Shown: positions 55,750-63,525 of the stretch, one piece after another
Position numbering within the stretch: position 1 is the first letter of the stretch
Layout of the letters: each line of letters begins with the position of its first letter
Source: Steroidobacter agaridevorans
Lineage (GTDB): Bacteria > Pseudomonadota > Gammaproteobacteria > Steroidobacterales > Steroidobacteraceae
NCBI RefSeq assembly: GCF_009932555.1
Contig: NZ_BLJO01000001.1
Location: 763,230 to 827,229, forward strand
Direction: 5' to 3'
Length of the DNA: 64,000 nt
The notes under the pieces: generated by a model
The model's database searches: none
What the model was told of the DNA's origin: nothing
Seen by the model: only the letters and a program-made list of their open reading frames with translations
Made by a program: the position numbers and the translations under genes

Positions 55750-55977
55750 ATGCCCAGAGCCCGAGCCAAGGCCCCCGCCAGCGACGCCGCCCCCTGGTGG
55801 TTGACGGACGGCGACGAAGAATGCCTCGGCTGCGGCCAGCTCTATATATATGAGATGGAGTTTCGCTGTCCCGAGTGTGAAATGACGACGTGTATTCATT
55901 GCCGGCGGCGGCGCCCCGATGGCCGCGTGGTGTGCGTTTCCTGCCTCGACGCTGGAGGACCGGGCGATGGCGGCTAG
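55750..55977 (+). CDS. Small zinc-ribbon protein
   Basis: A 75-residue protein with an N-terminal basic stretch and three Cys pairs (CLGC; CPEC with CIHC; CVSC), suggesting two zinc sites in a RING- or double-ribbon-like arrangement. ATG 55750 has GAGG at a good distance; the open frame extends upstream without support. Its stop overlaps the first Ku gene by 11 bases, so it is translationally tied to it. Function unknown, perhaps a partner in end joining. Confidence 0.68.
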   Translation: MPRARAKAPASDAAPWWLTDGDEECLGCGQLYIYEMEFRCPECEMTTCIHCRRRRPDGRVVCVSCLDAGGPGDGG

Positions 55978-56749
55978 AGCAATCTGGAAAGGCGAGCTGC
56001 AGCTCGGCAAGCACAACGTCGGCGTGAAGTTCTACTCGGCGATCGAGGACCGCAGCATCCGCTTCCATCTGCTGCACGAGAAGGACAAGGCGCCGGTCGA
56101 GCAGCACATCGTCCGCAAGGACACCGGCAAGGATGTGCCGAAGGAAGAGATGCGCAAGGCGTTCGCGGTCGGCCCGAATACTGCCGTGATCTTGCAGCCC
56201 GAAGAGCTCGAGGAGCTGGTGCCGCCGGAGTCCCGCGAAATCGAGTTGCTGCGATTCGTGCCGGCCAGCGCGGTCGGCGATCAATGGTACGAGCGCCCCT
56301 ACTATCTCGGCCCCGATGGTCACACCGACGATTACTTCGCATTCGGCGAGGCACTGTCCCGCAAGGAAGCGATCGGCATTGCGCGCTGGGTCATGCGCAA
56401 GAAGCGTTATCTCGGTGCAATCAGCGTCGTCGATGGCTATCTGATCATGACCACGCTGCGGCGGGCGGAACAGGTTGTGAGCTTCTCGGGCATCGAGCCC
56501 GCCAAGTCGGCCACACCGCAGGCGAACGAGCTGAAGCTGGCCGAGCAGCTGGTCAAGTCCATCGAGGCGGACTTCGATCCGGAGCAGTGGCAGAACGAAT
56601 ATCGGGTGCGCCTGTTGAAGCTCATCGAAGCCAAGGCCCGCGGCGAGAAGATCAAACCCGCGCCCGTCAAGAAGAAGCGCGCCGAAGGCAGCCTGGCGGA
56701 CAGCCTGAAGGCCAGCCTCGCCGCCGCCAAGGAGAAGAAAGTTGCCTAG
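55967..56749 (+). CDS. ku: Ku protein, copy 1 (non-homologous end joining)
   Basis: A 260-residue bacterial Ku. It begins MAARAIWKGELQLGKHNVGVKFYSAI and shows RFHLLHEKDKAPVEQ, FAVGPNTAVILQPEELEEL, the central ARWVMRKKRYLGAI and a Lys-rich tail. Bacterial Ku binds DNA ends as a ring and recruits ligase LigD. GGAGG precedes ATG 55967. It overlaps both neighbours: the zinc-ribbon gene and the second Ku gene. No ligD is in the window. Confidence 0.93.
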   Translation: MAARAIWKGELQLGKHNVGVKFYSAIEDRSIRFHLLHEKDKAPVEQHIVRKDTGKDVPKEEMRKAFAVGPNTAVILQPEELEELVPPESREIELLRFVPASAVGDQWYERPYYLGPDGHTDDYFAFGEALSRKEAIGIARWVMRKKRYLGAISVVDGYLIMTTLRRAEQVVSFSGIEPAKSATPQANELKLAEQLVKSIEADFDPEQWQNEYRVRLLKLIEAKARGEKIKPAPVKKKRAEGSLADSLKASLAAAKEKKVA

Positions 56750-57743
56750 TCGCAAACGCAAACGCGCGCCGGAACCAGAGCCCGAAGAGGAAAGCTCGAG
56801 CGCCCGCGTGCGCTCGCTGTGGTCCGGGACGATCACTTTCGGTCTGGTCAGCATCCCGGTGGATCTGCTGACTGCCGTGCGTCCGCGCCAGACTGCGATG
56901 AAACTGGTCGATACCGACGGGCACGCGCTGGGCCGCCAGTATCACTGCTCCAAAGAAGGCAAGAAGCTCGATTACGACGATCTGGTGCGTGGCTACGAGA
57001 CTGACGACGGCAAGATGGTCGTCATCACGGACAAAGAATTCGAATCCGTGGCGCCGGAGATGTCCGCCGACATCGAGCTGCGCAGCTTCGTGCCGCTCGA
57101 ACAGGTCCCGGCGCTGTACTTTCAAAAGCCCTACTTCCTCGCGCCCGCCGGCAAGTCGGCGAAGGCATACGTGCTGCTTGCGGAGACCATGAAACGCACC
57201 GGTCGGGTCGCGATCGGCAGCTTCGTCATGCGCGGTCATGAATATCTGGTGGCGATCGTTCCGGACAACGGCGTGCTGCGTCTGGACACGCTGCGCTATG
57301 CCGACGAAATCCGCACGCCCGCAGCGATCGGCCTGCCGAAACACCCCAAAGTGGCGGCCGCCAAGGTCACGCAGTTCGCCAAGGAGATCGAAGCGCTGAC
57401 TCACAAGGAGCTGAAGATCGCCGAGCTCGAGGATCAGGACGCGAAGAAGCTGCAGTCGCTGGTGGAAGCCAAGCAGAAAGAGCGCGACGACGTGATTCAT
57501 CCCAAAGGCGCCGAAGCCGCCGAAGACACCGAAGGCGGCGAAAGCGCGAAGGTCATCGATCTCATGGAAGTGCTGCGCAAGAGCCTGTCCAAGAGCGCGG
57601 TCGTGCGAACCGCCGAGGCCAGCGAACCTATCAATCTGGCGGAACGACGCGCCCAGCGCGAAGCCCGCTCTGCCACCGCGAAGAAGAAGACCCCTGCCAA
57701 GGCAAAGCGCAAAGCCCCGCGCAAGCGCGCCCGCCGCAGCTAG
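56742..57743 (+). CDS. ku: Ku protein, copy 2
   Basis: A 333-residue Ku. It starts from TTG 56742, overlapping the stop of copy 1 by 8 bases, with GGAG upstream. The core runs from RSLWSGTITFGLVSIPVDLL through RGYETDDGKMVVITDKEFE and GSFVMRGHEYLVAIVPDNG. A long Lys/Ala/Arg-rich C-terminal tail (from about residue 270) resembles the DNA-binding tails of soil-bacterial Ku. The two copies are clearly different sequences, so they may form heterodimers as proposed for other species with paired Ku genes. Confidence 0.93.
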   Translation: MPSRKRKRAPEPEPEEESSSARVRSLWSGTITFGLVSIPVDLLTAVRPRQTAMKLVDTDGHALGRQYHCSKEGKKLDYDDLVRGYETDDGKMVVITDKEFESVAPEMSADIELRSFVPLEQVPALYFQKPYFLAPAGKSAKAYVLLAETMKRTGRVAIGSFVMRGHEYLVAIVPDNGVLRLDTLRYADEIRTPAAIGLPKHPKVAAAKVTQFAKEIEALTHKELKIAELEDQDAKKLQSLVEAKQKERDDVIHPKGAEAAEDTEGGESAKVIDLMEVLRKSLSKSAVVRTAEASEPINLAERRAQREARSATAKKKTPAKAKRKAPRKRARRS

Positions 57744-57799: not shown

Positions 57800-57874
57800 C
57801 CGTGCTTGTGACGAAATGCTTCGGCCACAGCTTGGGAGAACACTGCAACCAGGTTCTTCCCAGTGAGGTCGATC

Positions 57875-58414
57875 ATGTTGAAGCAAGTTGTCGCCTTGTC
57901 CATGTGCCTGCTCTCGGCCGCGTGCACCGCCGGTGACACGTCCGCCGAGCCCATTCCGCCGGCAAACCACGCAACGGCGCCGTTGGCTCCGGAGTTCAAA
58001 GGCATCAAGCAATGGATCAACAGTGAGCCGCTGACGTTATCGCAGCTGCGCGGCTCGGTGGTGCTCGTCGAGTTCTGGACGCGAGACTGCATCAACTGCA
58101 TCCACGTCATGCCGCATATCAAAGAGTGGCACTCGCGTTATCGAGACCAGGGCTTGACCGTCGTAGGCGTGCACACGCCCGAATACGACCACGAGAAACT
58201 GCCCGCGAATGTGCAGCAGACCGTCAGGCGCTTCGGCCTCGAATATCCGATCGCGCTCGATAACGACTACCAGACCTGGGACGCCTACGGCAATCGCTTC
58301 TGGCCGGCGTTGTATCTGATCGATGCTGAAGGTCGCATCGTGTACCGCCACTACGGCGAGGGCAGCTATGCCGAAACGGAAGCTAAGATTCAGCAGTTGC
58401 TGGCGAAGCGCTGA
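57875..58414 (+). CDS. TlpA/DipZ-like lipoprotein thioredoxin
   Basis: A 179-residue exported protein. A short signal ends in the lipobox LLSAAC (Cys17), so it is membrane-anchored in the periplasm. The thioredoxin fold has the redox motif CINC (in FWTRDCINCIHVMP) and cis-Pro region WPALYLID. The layout with NHVMPHIKEWH resembles the C-terminal domain of DipZ-type proteins. ATG 57875 has GAGG upstream; GTG 57863 is less likely. It shares a promoter element with the bufferin operon and two-component system, so a role in thiol or metal stress is likely. Confidence 0.85.
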   Translation: MLKQVVALSMCLLSAACTAGDTSAEPIPPANHATAPLAPEFKGIKQWINSEPLTLSQLRGSVVLVEFWTRDCINCIHVMPHIKEWHSRYRDQGLTVVGVHTPEYDHEKLPANVQQTVRRFGLEYPIALDNDYQTWDAYGNRFWPALYLIDAEGRIVYRHYGEGSYAETEAKIQQLLAKR

Positions 58415-58484
58415 GTTTGTCGCCGGCCATGAACAGGCGTCGCAGCGTGCACGCCGCCGGTGCGAACGGCCACGACCTTGAATA

Positions 58485-59246
58485 TCATGCGACGTCGGCG
58501 CCTTCCGCCGGCGCCGCTGCGGCGCCCAACACGACGCCATCGCGACGAAACTGCTCGAGCATGCCCCGCCCTGGCTCCAGCAGCGCGCCTTCTGCAAGAC
58601 CTGCCTCGGCAGCGAGCACAGCCAGATGTTTCCTTCCGGTCCACGGGTTCGATGACAACGACACGAGCAACCGATAAGTCACCGGCGAAAGCTGCATGAA
58701 CCGAACGCGATGATCGGCCCCTCGATGCAACAGTAACAAGGTGGGCTGCTCCGGAGCCGCAGTCGGCACGGACTCGGGGCCGATGTGAGTCACTGCCCAT
58801 CGGTACGCCAGCGGCATGGCAAGTGGAGATAGCACGGGAGTCTGTTCGATGAGATCGCCGTCGGAATCATGGCCCGGCGCAGGCGCATCGGAAAGATGCA
58901 GCTTGGTTTCCATCCATTCGTAATGCGCCAGCTCCGCCAGCCACGCCGGATCGTCACCGCGAGTCTGCAGATAACTGACGAACTCGCCAGCAATCTCGGT
59001 GAACAGCGGCGTCTGCGCTCGGTAGTCCGCGTAGAAGTCACGGACCAGTTTCAGCCAGACCTCTCGATCCAATGTCTGTCGAATGACTGGAAATCCGCTC
59101 GCCAGCTGCGACTGCAGTGAATTGAAGAACAGATCGCGATACACCTTCATCCGCCGGTCCTCGATCCCGGCCGGCTTGGGATGCTGGTCCGGATCGCGCA
59201 GATGACGCGCGAACGCAAACTGCTGCTCTCGAAGCGTGCTAGCCAT
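58485..59246 (-). CDS. bufC: DUF2063-family partner protein (BufC-like)
   Basis: A 253-residue soluble protein. An N-terminal DUF2063 domain ([42 protein letters not shown], FLxYL-like segment [11 protein letters not shown]) is followed by a second domain that resembles a RiPP recognition fold ([27 protein letters not shown]). Such proteins accompany MNIO enzymes and are thought to present the precursor peptide. ATG 59246 overlaps the MNIO gene stop by 8 bases. It is the last gene of the operon. Confidence 0.88.
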
Positions 59247-60072
59247 CTTGCGTCACCGCCCGTTGCAGAGTCTTGATTCGTCCCATTTCCCGCAACAGCT
59301 CCGGCAGCGGTGGAAAATTGAAGTCGCGTTCGAGCAGCGTCGGGCGCACACCGAAGCGTTGGTACGCCATCGCCAGCAGCGACCACACCCCTTCTTTCAC
59401 GGTCGCGCCATGCGTATCGACCTTGAGATCGGGCGCCTCGTCGTGATGGCCGGCAACATGGAACGAGACAATACGCCCGGCAGGCAACCGGCCGAGAAAG
59501 TCACGCGCGCTGTAGCCGTGATTGCAGGCATTGACGAACAGGTTGTTCACGTCGAGCAGCAGATCGCAATCCGCCTCTTCGAGGACAGCCGTCACGAACT
59601 CGATTTCGCTCAACGCCTGATACGGCGCGGCGTAGTAAGAGATGTTCTCCACAGCGATCCGCCGGCCCAACACGTCCTGCGCCTGACGAATGCGACCGGC
59701 GACATGCTTGATGGCCTCCTCCGTGAACGGCACTGGCATCAAGTCATACAGATGTCCGTCATCGGAGCAGTAACTGAGATGCTCGCTATAGAGCGTCACC
59801 TTGTGCCGGTCGAGAAATTCACGAGTGCGCGTCAACAGCTGCATGTCGAGCGGCTCGGGCCCCGCCAACGACAACGACAGCCCATGACAGCTCAAGGGAA
59901 TCCGGCTCGACAGCTCATCGAGACACGCGCCGAAGTGGCCGCCGACACCGATCCAGTTATCCGGCGCGCACTCCAGAAAGTCCACGGCACCCTCCGGCAT
60001 CTCCTGTAACTCAGGCAGCAGACTCCGGCGCAAGCCGAGACCGGCCGAAGTCGGAGCGATGTCTTTGCTCAC
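59239..60072 (-). CDS. bufB: MNIO-family (DUF692) multinuclear iron oxidase of RiPP biosynthesis (BufB-like)
   Basis: A 277-residue TIM-barrel protein of DUF692. Metal ligands are visible in order: His in CHGLSLSL, Glu/His in YSEHLSY, Glu in VENISYY, Asp/Asn in LDVNNLFVN, His in HVAGHHDE, and Glu in LLERDFNFP. Known MNIOs change Cys residues of their precursor; in bufferins they form thiooxazole-type groups that bind copper. GTG 60072 has GGAG upstream. The Cys-rich precursor gene lies 137 bp upstream, with hairpins between. Confidence 0.92.
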
Positions 60073-60088
60073 AAACGATACTCCGCGA

Positions 60089-60122
60089 GAAGGCGCGCCT
60101 CGCTTTCACAAGGCGCACCTTC
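60089..60122 (-). promoter_or_regulatory. Hairpin in the MNIO gene leader
   Basis: GAAGGCGCGCC (60089-60099) and GGCGCACCTTC (60112-60122) pair with one mismatch, 17 bases before the MNIO start. It may slow translation or stop part of the transcripts coming from the precursor gene. Confidence 0.4.
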
Positions 60123-60135
60123 AGTGGCTACTCCT

Positions 60136-60174
60136 AGTTTGCCCAGCACGGCGGCATGCTGAGCTTGCCGCCGG
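60136..60174 (-). repeat. Degenerate tandem copy of the precursor gene's 3' end
   Basis: This stretch is a near copy of 60210-60253 (the end coding KFSIAAVLGK plus stop) with a few substitutions and a missing base, including a stop-like TAG. Between the two copies lies a 7-bp GC hairpin (CGGCGCC 60172-60178 / GGCGCCG 60191-60197). Confidence 0.6.
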
Positions 60175-60209
60175 CGCCCCGCCGTCGCGAGGCGCCGTAC
60201 TGGTTGCGC

Positions 60210-60692
60210 TTACTTGCCCAGCACCGCGGCGATGCTGAACTTGTCGGCCGGCATCTGTTTGCCGTTCGCTTCATAGACCGAGCGCAGGAACTTGTAAGCT
60301 TCGGCCTGGCTGATGAAGCCGTTCTTGTCGGCATCGATCTCGTTGAAGCTCGCCTCACGCTGCGGCGCCACGGCCAGGAACTCGGCTTTCGACACCTTGC
60401 CGTCGTTATTGGCGTCGGTCTTCGCGAACGACTCATCGCCGCACTTGCCTTCGCCACACTTGCCTTCGCCGCATTTGCCTTCGGCAGTCTTGGCGGCAGC
60501 GGCCTTGGACCCGCCGCACTTGCCTTCACCGCACTTGCCTTCGGCAGACTTGGACGTGGGCGCCGCAGTCAGCAGATAGCCGTGGGCCATCGGCTGCGCC
60601 GCGAACGCCGAGCTGGCGAGCAGCATGCCGCCGGTGAGCGCGATGCCGACAGCGCCGAGGCCGGTCTTATGGAAGGAAGAATTCTTGGACAT
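60210..60692 (-). CDS. Bufferin-like Cys-rich precursor fused to an EF-hand pair
   Basis: A 160-residue exported protein. A signal peptide (about 1-31, ending SSAFAAQ) is followed by a KCG-repeat region with Cys at 54, 59, 74, 79 and 84 (EGKCGEGKCG, later EGKCGEGKCGEGKCG). Residues 93-104 (DANNDGKVSKAE) and 120-131 (DADKNGFISQAE) are two canonical EF-hand loops with all calcium-ligand positions filled. EGKCG repeats are the hallmark of bufferin precursors modified by MNIO enzymes. The gene sits 4 bp behind DoxX and ahead of the MNIO and DUF2063 genes. The reverse-frame shadow ORFs are ignored. Confidence 0.88.
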   Translation of the reverse strand: MSKNSSFHKTGLGAVGIALTGGMLLASSAFAAQPMAHGYLLTAAPTSKSAEGKCGEGKCGGSKAAAAKTAEGKCGEGKCGEGKCGDESFAKTDANNDGKVSKAEFLAVAPQREASFNEIDADKNGFISQAEAYKFLRSVYEANGKQMPADKFSIAAVLGK

Positions 60693-60696
60693 AGCT

Positions 60697-61245
60697 TTAC
60701 TCCGGAAGTAGACGTGGCGTGCCACGCGGGTTGAGAGACCGCCCTGGGGCGGAGGATCGAAGGTGTCGCCAGAGGAGGTGATCCAGGCTCGCGCGCCCGG
60801 CGCCCTGCAGAATCAAGGGCAGCAACATCACCAGGTAGATGAGCGGCAGCTTGTAGTTGCCGAAGCCGTGATCGGTAATCGAGTAGCCTTGCCACAGCTC
60901 GGCCAGCGTCGACCATTCGGCCGGCCAGTGCACGGCTGCGATCGCCACGACCGTCAGCACCGACAGCGCCACGGCGAAGAAGCGCGTGCCGAGCCCGAAG
61001 AGCAGCGCGAGGCTGCCCAACAGCTCGAGCCAGGTCGCCAGCGCCCAATTCACATCCGGGCCGAGCAGCGAAAATGGCGGTGGAAACTTACCGGCGAGCT
61101 CGGCGAACCAGTTTTCGCCGTGTAGCTTCTCCAGCCCGGACTCGTAGAACTCCCACGCCAGCAGCACGCGCAAACCGAGCGGAGCGATCCACTCTCCCAG
61201 CCCGTTCAAGCGGTCCATCAGGGTGGACACAAACTTCAATGACAT
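60697..61245 (-). CDS. DoxX-family membrane protein
   Basis: A 182-residue inner-membrane protein with four helices. The DoxX start is visible (PLGLRVLLAWEFYESGLEKLHGENWFAE), followed by WLELLGSLALLFGLGTRFFAVALSVL and a late helix. DoxX genes are common companions of MNIO/DUF2063 genes and may serve redox steps at the membrane. It is the first gene of the operon; its stop lies inside the ribosome site of the precursor gene. ATG 61245 has GAGG upstream. Confidence 0.9.
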   Translation of the reverse strand: MSLKFVSTLMDRLNGLGEWIAPLGLRVLLAWEFYESGLEKLHGENWFAELAGKFPPPFSLLGPDVNWALATWLELLGSLALLFGLGTRFFAVALSVLTVVAIAAVHWPAEWSTLAELWQGYSITDHGFGNYKLPLIYLVMLLPLILQGAGRASLDHLLWRHLRSSAPGRSLNPRGTPRLLPE

Positions 61246-61291
61246 CGTCGCGGCCTCTGCTTCTGCGTTGGGCAGCGATTCAACGCGACGC

Positions 61292-61326
61292 ATGTATCCG
61301 GATCGTTTCGGCGACGGTGCGCTTAC
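61292..61326. promoter_or_regulatory. Regulon element site 2, between bufferin operon and two-component system
   Basis: ATGTATC (61292-61298), 21 bases, CGCTTAC (61320-61326). It lies 47 bases upstream of the DoxX start, so it is in place to control the bufferin operon. Confidence 0.6.
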
Positions 61327-61344
61327 CGGGCCCTGTGTATCGAA

Positions 61345-61383
61345 ATGTATCCGGGCGAAAAATCCCCGGATTCGCTTACAAAA
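61345..61383 (+). promoter_or_regulatory. Regulon element site 3, upstream of the response regulator
   Basis: ATGTATC (61345-61351), 21 bases, CGCTTACAAAA (61373-61383), ending 71 bases before GTG 61454. A further TGTATC at 61336-61341 makes a 10-base direct repeat with the first half-site, the spacing commonly bound by OmpR-type regulators. Confidence 0.65.
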
Positions 61384-61453
61384 GCGGCGCGCCCGCCGGC
61401 GTGCGGTTGCCGTAAAATCCGTCTCGCCAGTTGCTCTGGCGCGAGGAAGACGA

Positions 61454-62190
<737 letters not shown>

Positions 62191-62194
<4 letters not shown>

Positions 62195-63525
62195 AAGTGC
62201 GCCGGCCCGCTTGGATGTCACGTCTCGTGCCGCGAACCATGGCGGCCCGATTGTATTTGATCCTGTGTGCTGGCCTGCTGGTCGCGCACGCATTGTCCGC
62301 CAGCTTGATGCTGTACGAGCGCTATCTCTCCGCCCGCTCGATGCTGTGGAGCAACCTGGAGCACGATGTGAGCACGGCGGTCGCACTGCTCGATCGCCTG
62401 CCCGAAGAGCAACGCGCGGACTGGCTGCCTCGTCTGGAACGACGAACGTATCGATACATTCTGGGGGCTGGCGAAGTGAACGACCAGCCGCTCGACGAAG
62501 TCGGCCGCGGGATGACACAGATGATCGTCAGCTCGCTGGGCGATCGATACCCGGTGACAGCGAACAGCACCTCGCAGGATCCGTATCGCTTTCAGGCGCA
62601 CACCCAGCTCAGCGACGGCTCGCCCCTGACCATCGAAGTCACTCCTTCGGTGATGCCGATCGCTAAATGGTTGCCGACGGTGCTGGGCGCACAAGTCGTG
62701 CTCTTGCTGGCGTGCGCCTGGATTGCAGTACGGCTCGTCACTCGCCCGCTCGCCGATCTGGCCCGCGCCGCCGAATCCATCAGCCCGAGCGGCGGCGGAC
62801 AATATCTGAAAGAAGGCGGTCCGACCGAAGTGGCGCACGCAGCCGCCGCGTTCAACGCCATGCAGGATCGGATCGCCCGTTACCTGCGTGAGCGCATGCA
62901 GATCCTCGCGTCCATCTCTCACGATCTGCAAACGCCGATCACTCGAATGTCACTGCGGGCCGAAGCGTTGCAGGACTCGAATGAGCGCAGCAAGCTTTTG
63001 GAAGATCTGGGTGAGATGCAGCACCTGGTGCGCGAAGGCGTCGCCTACGCCCGCAGCTCGCATGGCGCGACGGAGCCCCCAGTCAACGTCGATCTGAATG
63101 CGTTCCTGGACAGCCTGGTCTACGACTACCAGGACATGGGCAAGCAGGTGACCTTGACCGGCAAGGTGGATGAGCCCGTCAACACGCGTCCGCATGCGCT
63201 ACGTCGCGTGATCGGCAACCTGCTCGACAACGCCATCAAATATGCCGGCGCTGGCGAAATTGAAATCCGTCGCACCGAGGGCGGCATCGCCATCGGCGTG
63301 CTGGACCGTGGGCCGGGTATTCCGGAAGATCAACTCGAAGCCGCGCTTCAACCTTTCTATCGATTGGAGCGTTCGCGCAGTCGCGAAACCGGTGGCGCGG
63401 GTCTCGGTCTCGCCATCGCTCAGCAGCTCGCGATCGCGATCGGCGCAACGCTGGAACTGAGCAACCGCGTCGGCGGCGGACTGCAAGCCATGCTGCTGCT
63501 GCCCGCGAAATTGCCGGGGTTGTAG
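62191..63525 (+). CDS. Sensor histidine kinase
   Basis: A 444-residue inner-membrane kinase. Two membrane helices (about 18-40 and 160-182) enclose a periplasmic sensor part. A HAMP linker (RPLADLARAAESI) follows, then HisKA with His244 (SISHDLQTPITRM) and HATPase (NLLDNAIKYA, DRGPGIP, GGAGLGLAIAQQ). The GTG start overlaps the regulator's stop as GTGA, so both are one unit. Its signal is unknown; the neighbouring bufferin operon suggests copper or envelope redox stress. Confidence 0.92.

Follow-up and report, generated by a model that had tools for sequence, protein, structure and literature searches.

An EfhP-type EGKCG precursor with two EF-hands, encoded in an MNIO operon of Steroidobacter agaridevorans

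The precursor gene and its operon

The window, which here means the whole stretch of 64,000 nucleotides that was analysed (contig NZ_BLJO01000001.1, positions 763,230 to 827,229), contains a minus-strand operon with the gene order DoxX/HvfX, precursor, MNIO HvfB, and HvfC. Two regulator genes diverge from this operon. The features are as follows, in coordinates of the window.

60697..61293, minus strand: DoxX/HvfX family membrane protein, operon gene 1 (NF050144, 145.7 vs 80 bits; Pfam DoxX)
60210..60692, minus strand: EfhP-type RiPP precursor, 160 aa (NCBIfam and Pfam profiles)
60438..60542, minus strand: EGKCG segment of the precursor, residues 51-85, with the proposed MNIO target cysteines (motif positions; NF050137)
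60300..60416, minus strand: EF-hand Ca2+ loop pair of the precursor, residues 93-131 (Pfam EF-hand_1/5/6; conservation in relatives)
60073..60209, minus strand: precursor-MNIO intergenic spacer with a strong predicted fold (-82.6 kcal/mol, z -6.3)
59239..60072, minus strand: MNIO-type maturase, HvfB family (NF003818, 414.6 vs 360 bits; PF05114, E 2e-99)
58485..59246, minus strand: HvfC family partner with DUF2063 and NGO1945_C domains (NF050145, 288.5 vs 142 bits; Pfam)
57863..58414, plus strand: thioredoxin-fold protein resembling TlpA/ResA, encoded convergently to the operon (comparable gene close to 17 of 80 relatives)
61454..62194, plus strand: OmpR-type response regulator, GTG start, candidate BfmR orthologue (identity to genome G1188 and gene order)
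62191..63525, plus strand: EnvZ-like sensor kinase, candidate BfmS orthologue (identity to G1188 and gene order)

The precursor frame runs from an ATG at 60692 to a stop at 60210 and comprises 160 codons with no internal stop. Its N-terminus (about residues 1-31) carries a hydrophobic stretch followed by AFA at 29-31, which resembled a Sec signal as judged by eye. Five EGKCG motifs start at residues 51, 56, 71, 76, and 81, and every cysteine (54, 59, 74, 79, and 84) lies within one of them; the NCBIfam profile NF050137 (KCGExKCG_twice) scored 41.7 bits against a curated cut-off of 19.5. The EF-hand loops are D93-E104 and D120-E131. The Pfam profiles EF-hand_1, EF-hand_5, and EF-hand_6 exceeded their curated cut-offs in two stretches apiece, the C-terminal EF-hand_5 pair (PF13202) with 37.2 vs 25.9 bits, and the tail beyond the loops has conserved residues at N143-G144 and P148. 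The initial annotation had described one reading frame with a signal peptide, five KCG repeats, and two complete EF-hand loops, and this description was confirmed on the minus strand, with the signal peptide judged by eye. Twenty-one sequences of solved structures matched the precursor at E <=0.01 (best 4.8e-5), nearly all of them EF-hand proteins, and a search of 72,556 plasmid records gave no match at E 1e-5. Two other EF-hand assignments were rejected: a lanmodulin-like lanthanide protein, because the NCBIfam score was 21 vs 135 bits and neither loop has a proline at position 2, which we take to be the lanmodulin motif; and XopAW (28.9 vs 120 bits, NCBIfam), whose match was confined to the EF-hand region.

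All three partner genes (DoxX/HvfX, HvfB, and HvfC) exceeded NCBIfam equivalog cut-offs, among them the MNIO and DUF2063/RRE genes, the pair named in the initial annotation. The DoxX gene, whose start is perhaps the ATG at 61245 instead, ends four bases ahead of the precursor ATG, and the last 8 bases of the MNIO gene are shared with the HvfC gene. The precursor and MNIO genes are separated by a spacer of 137 bases, and the corresponding spacer had a folding z below -2 in 44 of the 65 relatives with MNIO downstream (40 shuffles each, with approximate MNIO starts). Such a strong fold fits a device holding precursor output above enzyme output, and we infer that the spacer probably has this role. 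No sigma-70 consensus promoter was found in 58000-61600. By eye, window positions 60134-60163 resemble 60210-60239, so that the spacer partly duplicates the last approximately 30 bases of the precursor gene. An adjacent plus-strand gene pair at 55919-57743 resembles bacterial Ku proteins, also by eye.

Resemblance to EfhP and conservation among relatives

EfhP (PA4107) of P. aeruginosa has long been studied as a Ca2+ sensor; it is operonic with DUF692 and DUF2063 genes, has EF loops at 88-99 and 115-126, and is predicted to orient its EF-hands to the periplasm (PMC4053335). The grouping given there also assigns an efhP homologue next to DUF692 and DUF2063 genes to the laboratory strain Pseudomonas putida KT2440. 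It binds Ca2+ with an affinity of 13.7 uM and responds with a Ca2+-dependent structural change and increased hydrophobicity (PMC9132961). The initial annotation had suggested that calcium may fold the C-terminal half, guide the enzymes, or tether the product outside the inner membrane; the changes reported for EfhP favour folding or partner binding. The protein has four EGKCG repeats, and its authors proposed iron sensing by the EGKCG cysteines (PMC11559002). An exact match to the published efhP primer occurred in none of 298 genomes of one Pseudomonadaceae genus and in one of 25 genomes of another, namely G1188. The window proteins were 57.5% (precursor, over 153 aa), 75% (MNIO), 50% (HvfC), 62.5% (DoxX), 76.6% (response regulator), and 57% (kinase) identical to those of G1188, and the G1188 precursor has four EGKCG motifs and loops starting at 87 and 114, one residue off the PAO1 numbering. 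The names BfmRS and EfhP were taken from PMC4053335, PMC4148453, and PMC8025907 together with gene order, and sequences were compared with G1188, not with PAO1. We read the regulator genes as BfmRS because of their identity to G1188, the gene order, and the names in these papers. On this comparison, the window appears to hold a gammaproteobacterial EfhP/BfmRS locus, with orthology drawn through G1188.

The initial annotation had called for a search for other MNIO operons with a precursor that combines KCG repeats with EF-hands. A scan of genome contigs yielded at least 313 relatives, of which the best 80 were kept; the counts of relatives below cover those 80, which were chosen by likeness to the EF part and, with 59 belonging to Pseudomonas, are not independent. 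In every one of the 80, a single frame encodes two or more EGKCG-type motifs and, after them, the EF part. The motif number ranges from 2 to 8 and is 4 or 6 in 67 relatives. Start codons were chosen by script, and motif counts are safer than cysteine counts since three relatives (L075, L114, and L124) gain extra cysteines upstream of the likely start. Both loops were strictly canonical in 69 relatives; 10 of the 11 deviating ones have a change at loop position 3 or 6, and L114 lacks one residue in loop 1 and has a change at position 6 of its second loop. Among the 79 distinct EF parts (of 83), position 1 was D and position 12 was E in both loops without exception, and position 5 was D in all 79 for loop 1 and D in 77 and N in 2 for loop 2. 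The EF part was free of cysteine in all 80 relatives.

A frame joined by a sequencing error, which had been named as a possible flaw of the prediction, or an EF-hand protein with a cysteine segment acquired by chance, would draw on the low complexity of the repeats and nothing further. Against both stand an intact frame of 93% identity, found in another genome of this genus, and the same order of parts in 80 of 80 kept relatives; these relatives rule the explanation out, and we assign it a negligible probability.

An MNIO gene was found near 66 of the 80 relatives, including one (L122) with only a 40-aa MNIO stretch, an HvfC gene near 65, a DoxX gene near 40, a kinase gene near 36, a TlpA-like gene near 17, and a response regulator of at least 60% identity near 31. 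Flanks extended to 5 kb at most and were sometimes shorter, so that these are lower bounds. In the remaining 14 relatives the precursor stood alone, with no MNIO gene in the available flanks, which in two of the 14 amount to less than 1 kb downstream. Four Pseudomonas loci among these 14 (L135, L136, L142, and L143) have a single EGKCGEGKCG pair with two cysteines; less than 2 kb of flank is left downstream in L135 and L143.

These counts bear on two alternative views of the protein. It could be mainly a Ca2+ sensor, with EGKCG repeats that are minor or sense iron or redox state and an MNIO modification that is incomplete or has a signalling purpose instead of buffering copper. Deletion of efhP was reported to affect mainly Ca2+ homeostasis, the oxidative stress response, and the uptake of iron (PMC4053335, PMC11559002), loop positions 1 and 12 are invariant while the EGKCG number drifts, and the relatives lacking MNIO in their flanks point the same way. 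However, the frequent presence of MNIO, HvfC, and DoxX genes and the retention of two or more motifs in every relative argue against this view, and we consider it unlikely that the protein is mainly a Ca2+ sensor. Alternatively, the EF-hand half might be a folding or export device only, in which the high Ca2+ level of the periplasm makes the modified precursor fold once Sec has exported it and so draws it out or holds it there, with no signalling. The conserved Ca2+ loops, the cysteine-free EF part, and the predicted periplasmic EF-hands of EfhP (PMC4053335) are consistent with such a device, whereas EGKCG precursors without EF-hands are common (46 were scored), indicating that export does not need EF-hands, and the Ca2+ phenotypes reported for efhP mutants are broad (PMC4053335). 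We give this view, too, a rather low probability.

The full-length protein was patchy within its own genus, being present in its own genome and one other (G011) of 14, with weak partial matches in three more. In a phylum sample of 398 genomes, 17 matched at 1e-10; judging from the frames at these loci, the EF-hands are C-terminal in 7, embedded in 4, and absent from 6. An EF-hand pair placed between EGKCG segments was observed at seven loci: L036, L171 (also L034), L169 (L040), L170 (L051), L172 (L053), L173 (L151), and L174 (L155). An MNIO gene was present in 7 of 7 and an HvfC gene in all six wider ones; the accessible text of PMC12452194 describes EF-hands in C-terminal order only. One 27-kb IMG/VR contig listed as viral (L062, 2992-3438) encodes an EF-hand EGKCG precursor of 43% identity that has lost the loop 1 glycine; the 5.4 kb searched there contained no MNIO match.

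An MNIO tree was built from 163 loci (some overlapping), of which 109 had an MNIO match and 107 were kept together with the window, leaving 47 rows after thinning at 86% identity. The tree unites the C-terminal fusions with 1 change (support 77/82; grouping recovered in 80% of the 200 bootstrap trees). Loci with embedded EF-hands are not grouped and take 4 changes, and EF-hands versus none needs 3; with 11 of 44 branches starred and the bootstrap not settled, no direction is claimed. A single origin of the EF-hand fusions was not supported, as the tree scatters the embedded loci.

BfmR-like sites in the divergent promoter

The BfmR motif has been given as TACAA-N3-GATACA, and the top three ChIP-seq regions of BfmR were the efhP, PA4103, and bfmR promoters, with efhP as the most activated gene (PMC8025907). 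An EMSA of the efhP promoter with BfmR has also been reported, and at bfmR three regions were protected, all of them containing GATACAnnGC (PMC4148453). The divergent promoter of the window contains the following elements.

61336-61349, minus strand: BfmR-like site TACATTTCGATACA (TACAA-N3-GATACA, one mismatch)
61293-61298 and 61346-61351: further GATACA half-sites (motif scan)

The site at 61336-61349 was the only match with at most one mismatch in the 64-kb window, where 0.08 were expected. Three GATACA half-sites fall within 60 bases of this promoter, none of which (0/3) fits the longer 2014 consensus GATACAnnGC, and GATACA was over-represented in the whole window (24 observed vs 10.7 expected).

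The promoter regions scanned were those of the precursor, the DoxX gene, and the regulator gene; 68 of the 80 relatives had a BfmR-like site in one of them, and the other 12 had none. These sites numbered 87 in 54,744 promoter bases vs 18 in 739,246 bases elsewhere, being 65-fold denser in the promoters. Within 450 bp upstream of the precursor, a site was present in 55 of 80 EF-hand relatives vs 1 of 46 EGKCG precursors without EF-hands, although the 46 controls mostly belong to other families and the difference may reflect taxonomy as well as architecture. The reversed motif gave 0/80 and 0/46 over the same distance. The controls were those scored among 57 loci (L005-L061), 11 being filtered out for lack of a suitable precursor frame, presence of EF-hands, or a short upstream region. 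Within 1300 bp upstream, a site occurred in 8/8 Stenotrophomonas, 49/59 Pseudomonas, 2/5 Lysobacter, and 7/8 other relatives; among the seven loci with embedded EF-hands, none was found within 1300 bases. Upstream of the G1188 precursor, no site matched when one mismatch was allowed, and the rest of that locus had only one; for PAO1, binding to the promoter has been published. These results indicate that the BfmR-like site accompanies the EF-hand EGKCG class across several genera.

Proposed function and comparison with known systems

The gene content, the motifs, the conserved ligands, and the conserved regulator-like site are observations of this analysis, and they lead us to regard it as probable that the precursor is a BfmR-induced, exported, MNIO-modified binder of copper or another soft metal, the C-terminal half of which folds on Ca2+. 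BfmRS would sense a stress and, acting at positions 61336-61349, switch on the operon divergent from its own genes, and the structured spacer would hold precursor output above that of the enzyme. HvfC, with its DUF2063 and RRE parts, would present the EGKCG segment to the iron enzyme HvfB, which would convert the EGKCG cysteines into thiooxazoles in the cytoplasm before Sec exports the modified precursor. Once in the periplasm, the modified and flexible EGKCG part would take up Cu(I) or another soft metal, and the C-terminal half would bind Ca2+ at its two EF-hands, fold, and present a surface to a partner or to the cell envelope. Ca2+ binding has been shown for EfhP only, and activation by BfmR has been shown for efhP; both would extend to the window protein by analogy.

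The chemistry in this scheme is modelled on other EGKCG peptides. Fontiphorin, oxazolin, and gonophorin were reported to carry 5-thiooxazoles, and fontiphorin and gonophorin to bind Cu; FonBC modified a two-repeat peptide, not a one-repeat peptide (PMC13097082), a requirement with which the minimum of two motifs in each of the 80 relatives may be compared. Since the enzymes are related and the EGKCG motifs identical, the same thiooxazoles and copper binding may be expected of the window precursor. The accessible literature on the class reports neither thiooxazole modification nor Cu binding for any member with EF-hands.

Any link between the EGKCG half and the EF-hand half is something we infer. 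In its strongest form, the EF-hand pair would be a Ca2+ gate, Ca2+ encountered after export altering the uptake or release of Cu(I) or iron by the modified EGKCG segment; we put this forward tentatively, as a rather unlikely extension. No published test of EfhP-type modification or of Ca2+-gated metal binding was found among the matches listed, as far as their accessible text goes. If the gate were true, the "calcium sensor" EfhP of P. aeruginosa would be an MNIO-modified metalloprotein, and its calcium and iron phenotypes would partly be those of a BfmR-controlled metal buffer. Three subjects meet in this finding: copper peptides made by MNIO enzymes, EfhP as a Ca2+ sensor, and the regulon of BfmRS. 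EfhP is cited in the MNIO survey, the main text of which mentions no two-component system, histidine kinase, or response regulator, and the 2024 EfhP paper (PMC11559002) cites BfmRS and has no MNIO, bufferin, or RiPP in the accessible part of its main text.

The combination of EGKCG repeats and EF-hands had initially been annotated as having no described case. This does not hold: the fusion class is already in print as the Buf_EGKC|EF-hand_5 chimaera, with WP_187711723.1 as an example (PMC12452194), and EfhP, which has four EGKCG motifs and for which Ca2+ binding has been published, belongs to it. Like that chimaera, the window precursor has a short EGKCG domain of repeated motifs without 17-residue repeats, two C-terminal EF-hands, and an MNIO/DUF2063/DoxX cluster, and no difference is apparent from the accessible description. 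The window precursor is thus a further member of a published architecture.

The designation as a bufferin-type precursor stood in part. The protein is an EGKCG-type MNIO substrate fused to EF-hands, and it is not a Buf1 or Buf2 in the strict sense in view of its motif and enzymes. Judged by these, it belongs with the EGKCG (HvfA/oxazolin/fontiphorin) type, although the HvfA oxazolin equivalog NF050188 (NCBIfam) scored 33.4 bits, under its cut-off of 95. It shares EGKCG motifs and MNIO and DUF2063-type partners with the precursors of fontiphorin, oxazolin (HvfA), gonophorin, and bulbicupramide, the products of which are thiooxazole peptides, several of them binding Cu; EF-hands are unmentioned in the accessible descriptions of these peptides. 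With the bufferins Buf1 (DUF2282) and Buf2 (6/12 Cys) it shares the Sec signal, the MNIO and DUF2063/RRE partner, and the copper role, each of these to the extent predicted here, but it is of a different family; DUF2282 was absent from its Pfam matches at E up to 1. Elsewhere in the same genome (contig C4, locus L163, 4186-6178), a second MNIO gene stands with an 88-aa six-cysteine precursor and a partner-like gene, a cluster that looks Buf2-like, its precursor and partner being judged by eye.

The EfhP locus comprises the PA4107-PA4106-PA4105 operon, with bfmRS (PA4101-PA4102) and PA4103-PA4104 nearby. Like EfhP, the window protein combines EGKCG repeats with two EF-hand loops at a spacing of 27 residues, and its gene has DUF692/MNIO and DUF2063 partners and a BfmRS-like neighbour. 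Unlike EfhP, to which it is approximately 58% identical as measured on G1188, it has five EGKCG motifs instead of four, and its DoxX gene heads the same operon, from which the regulator genes diverge.
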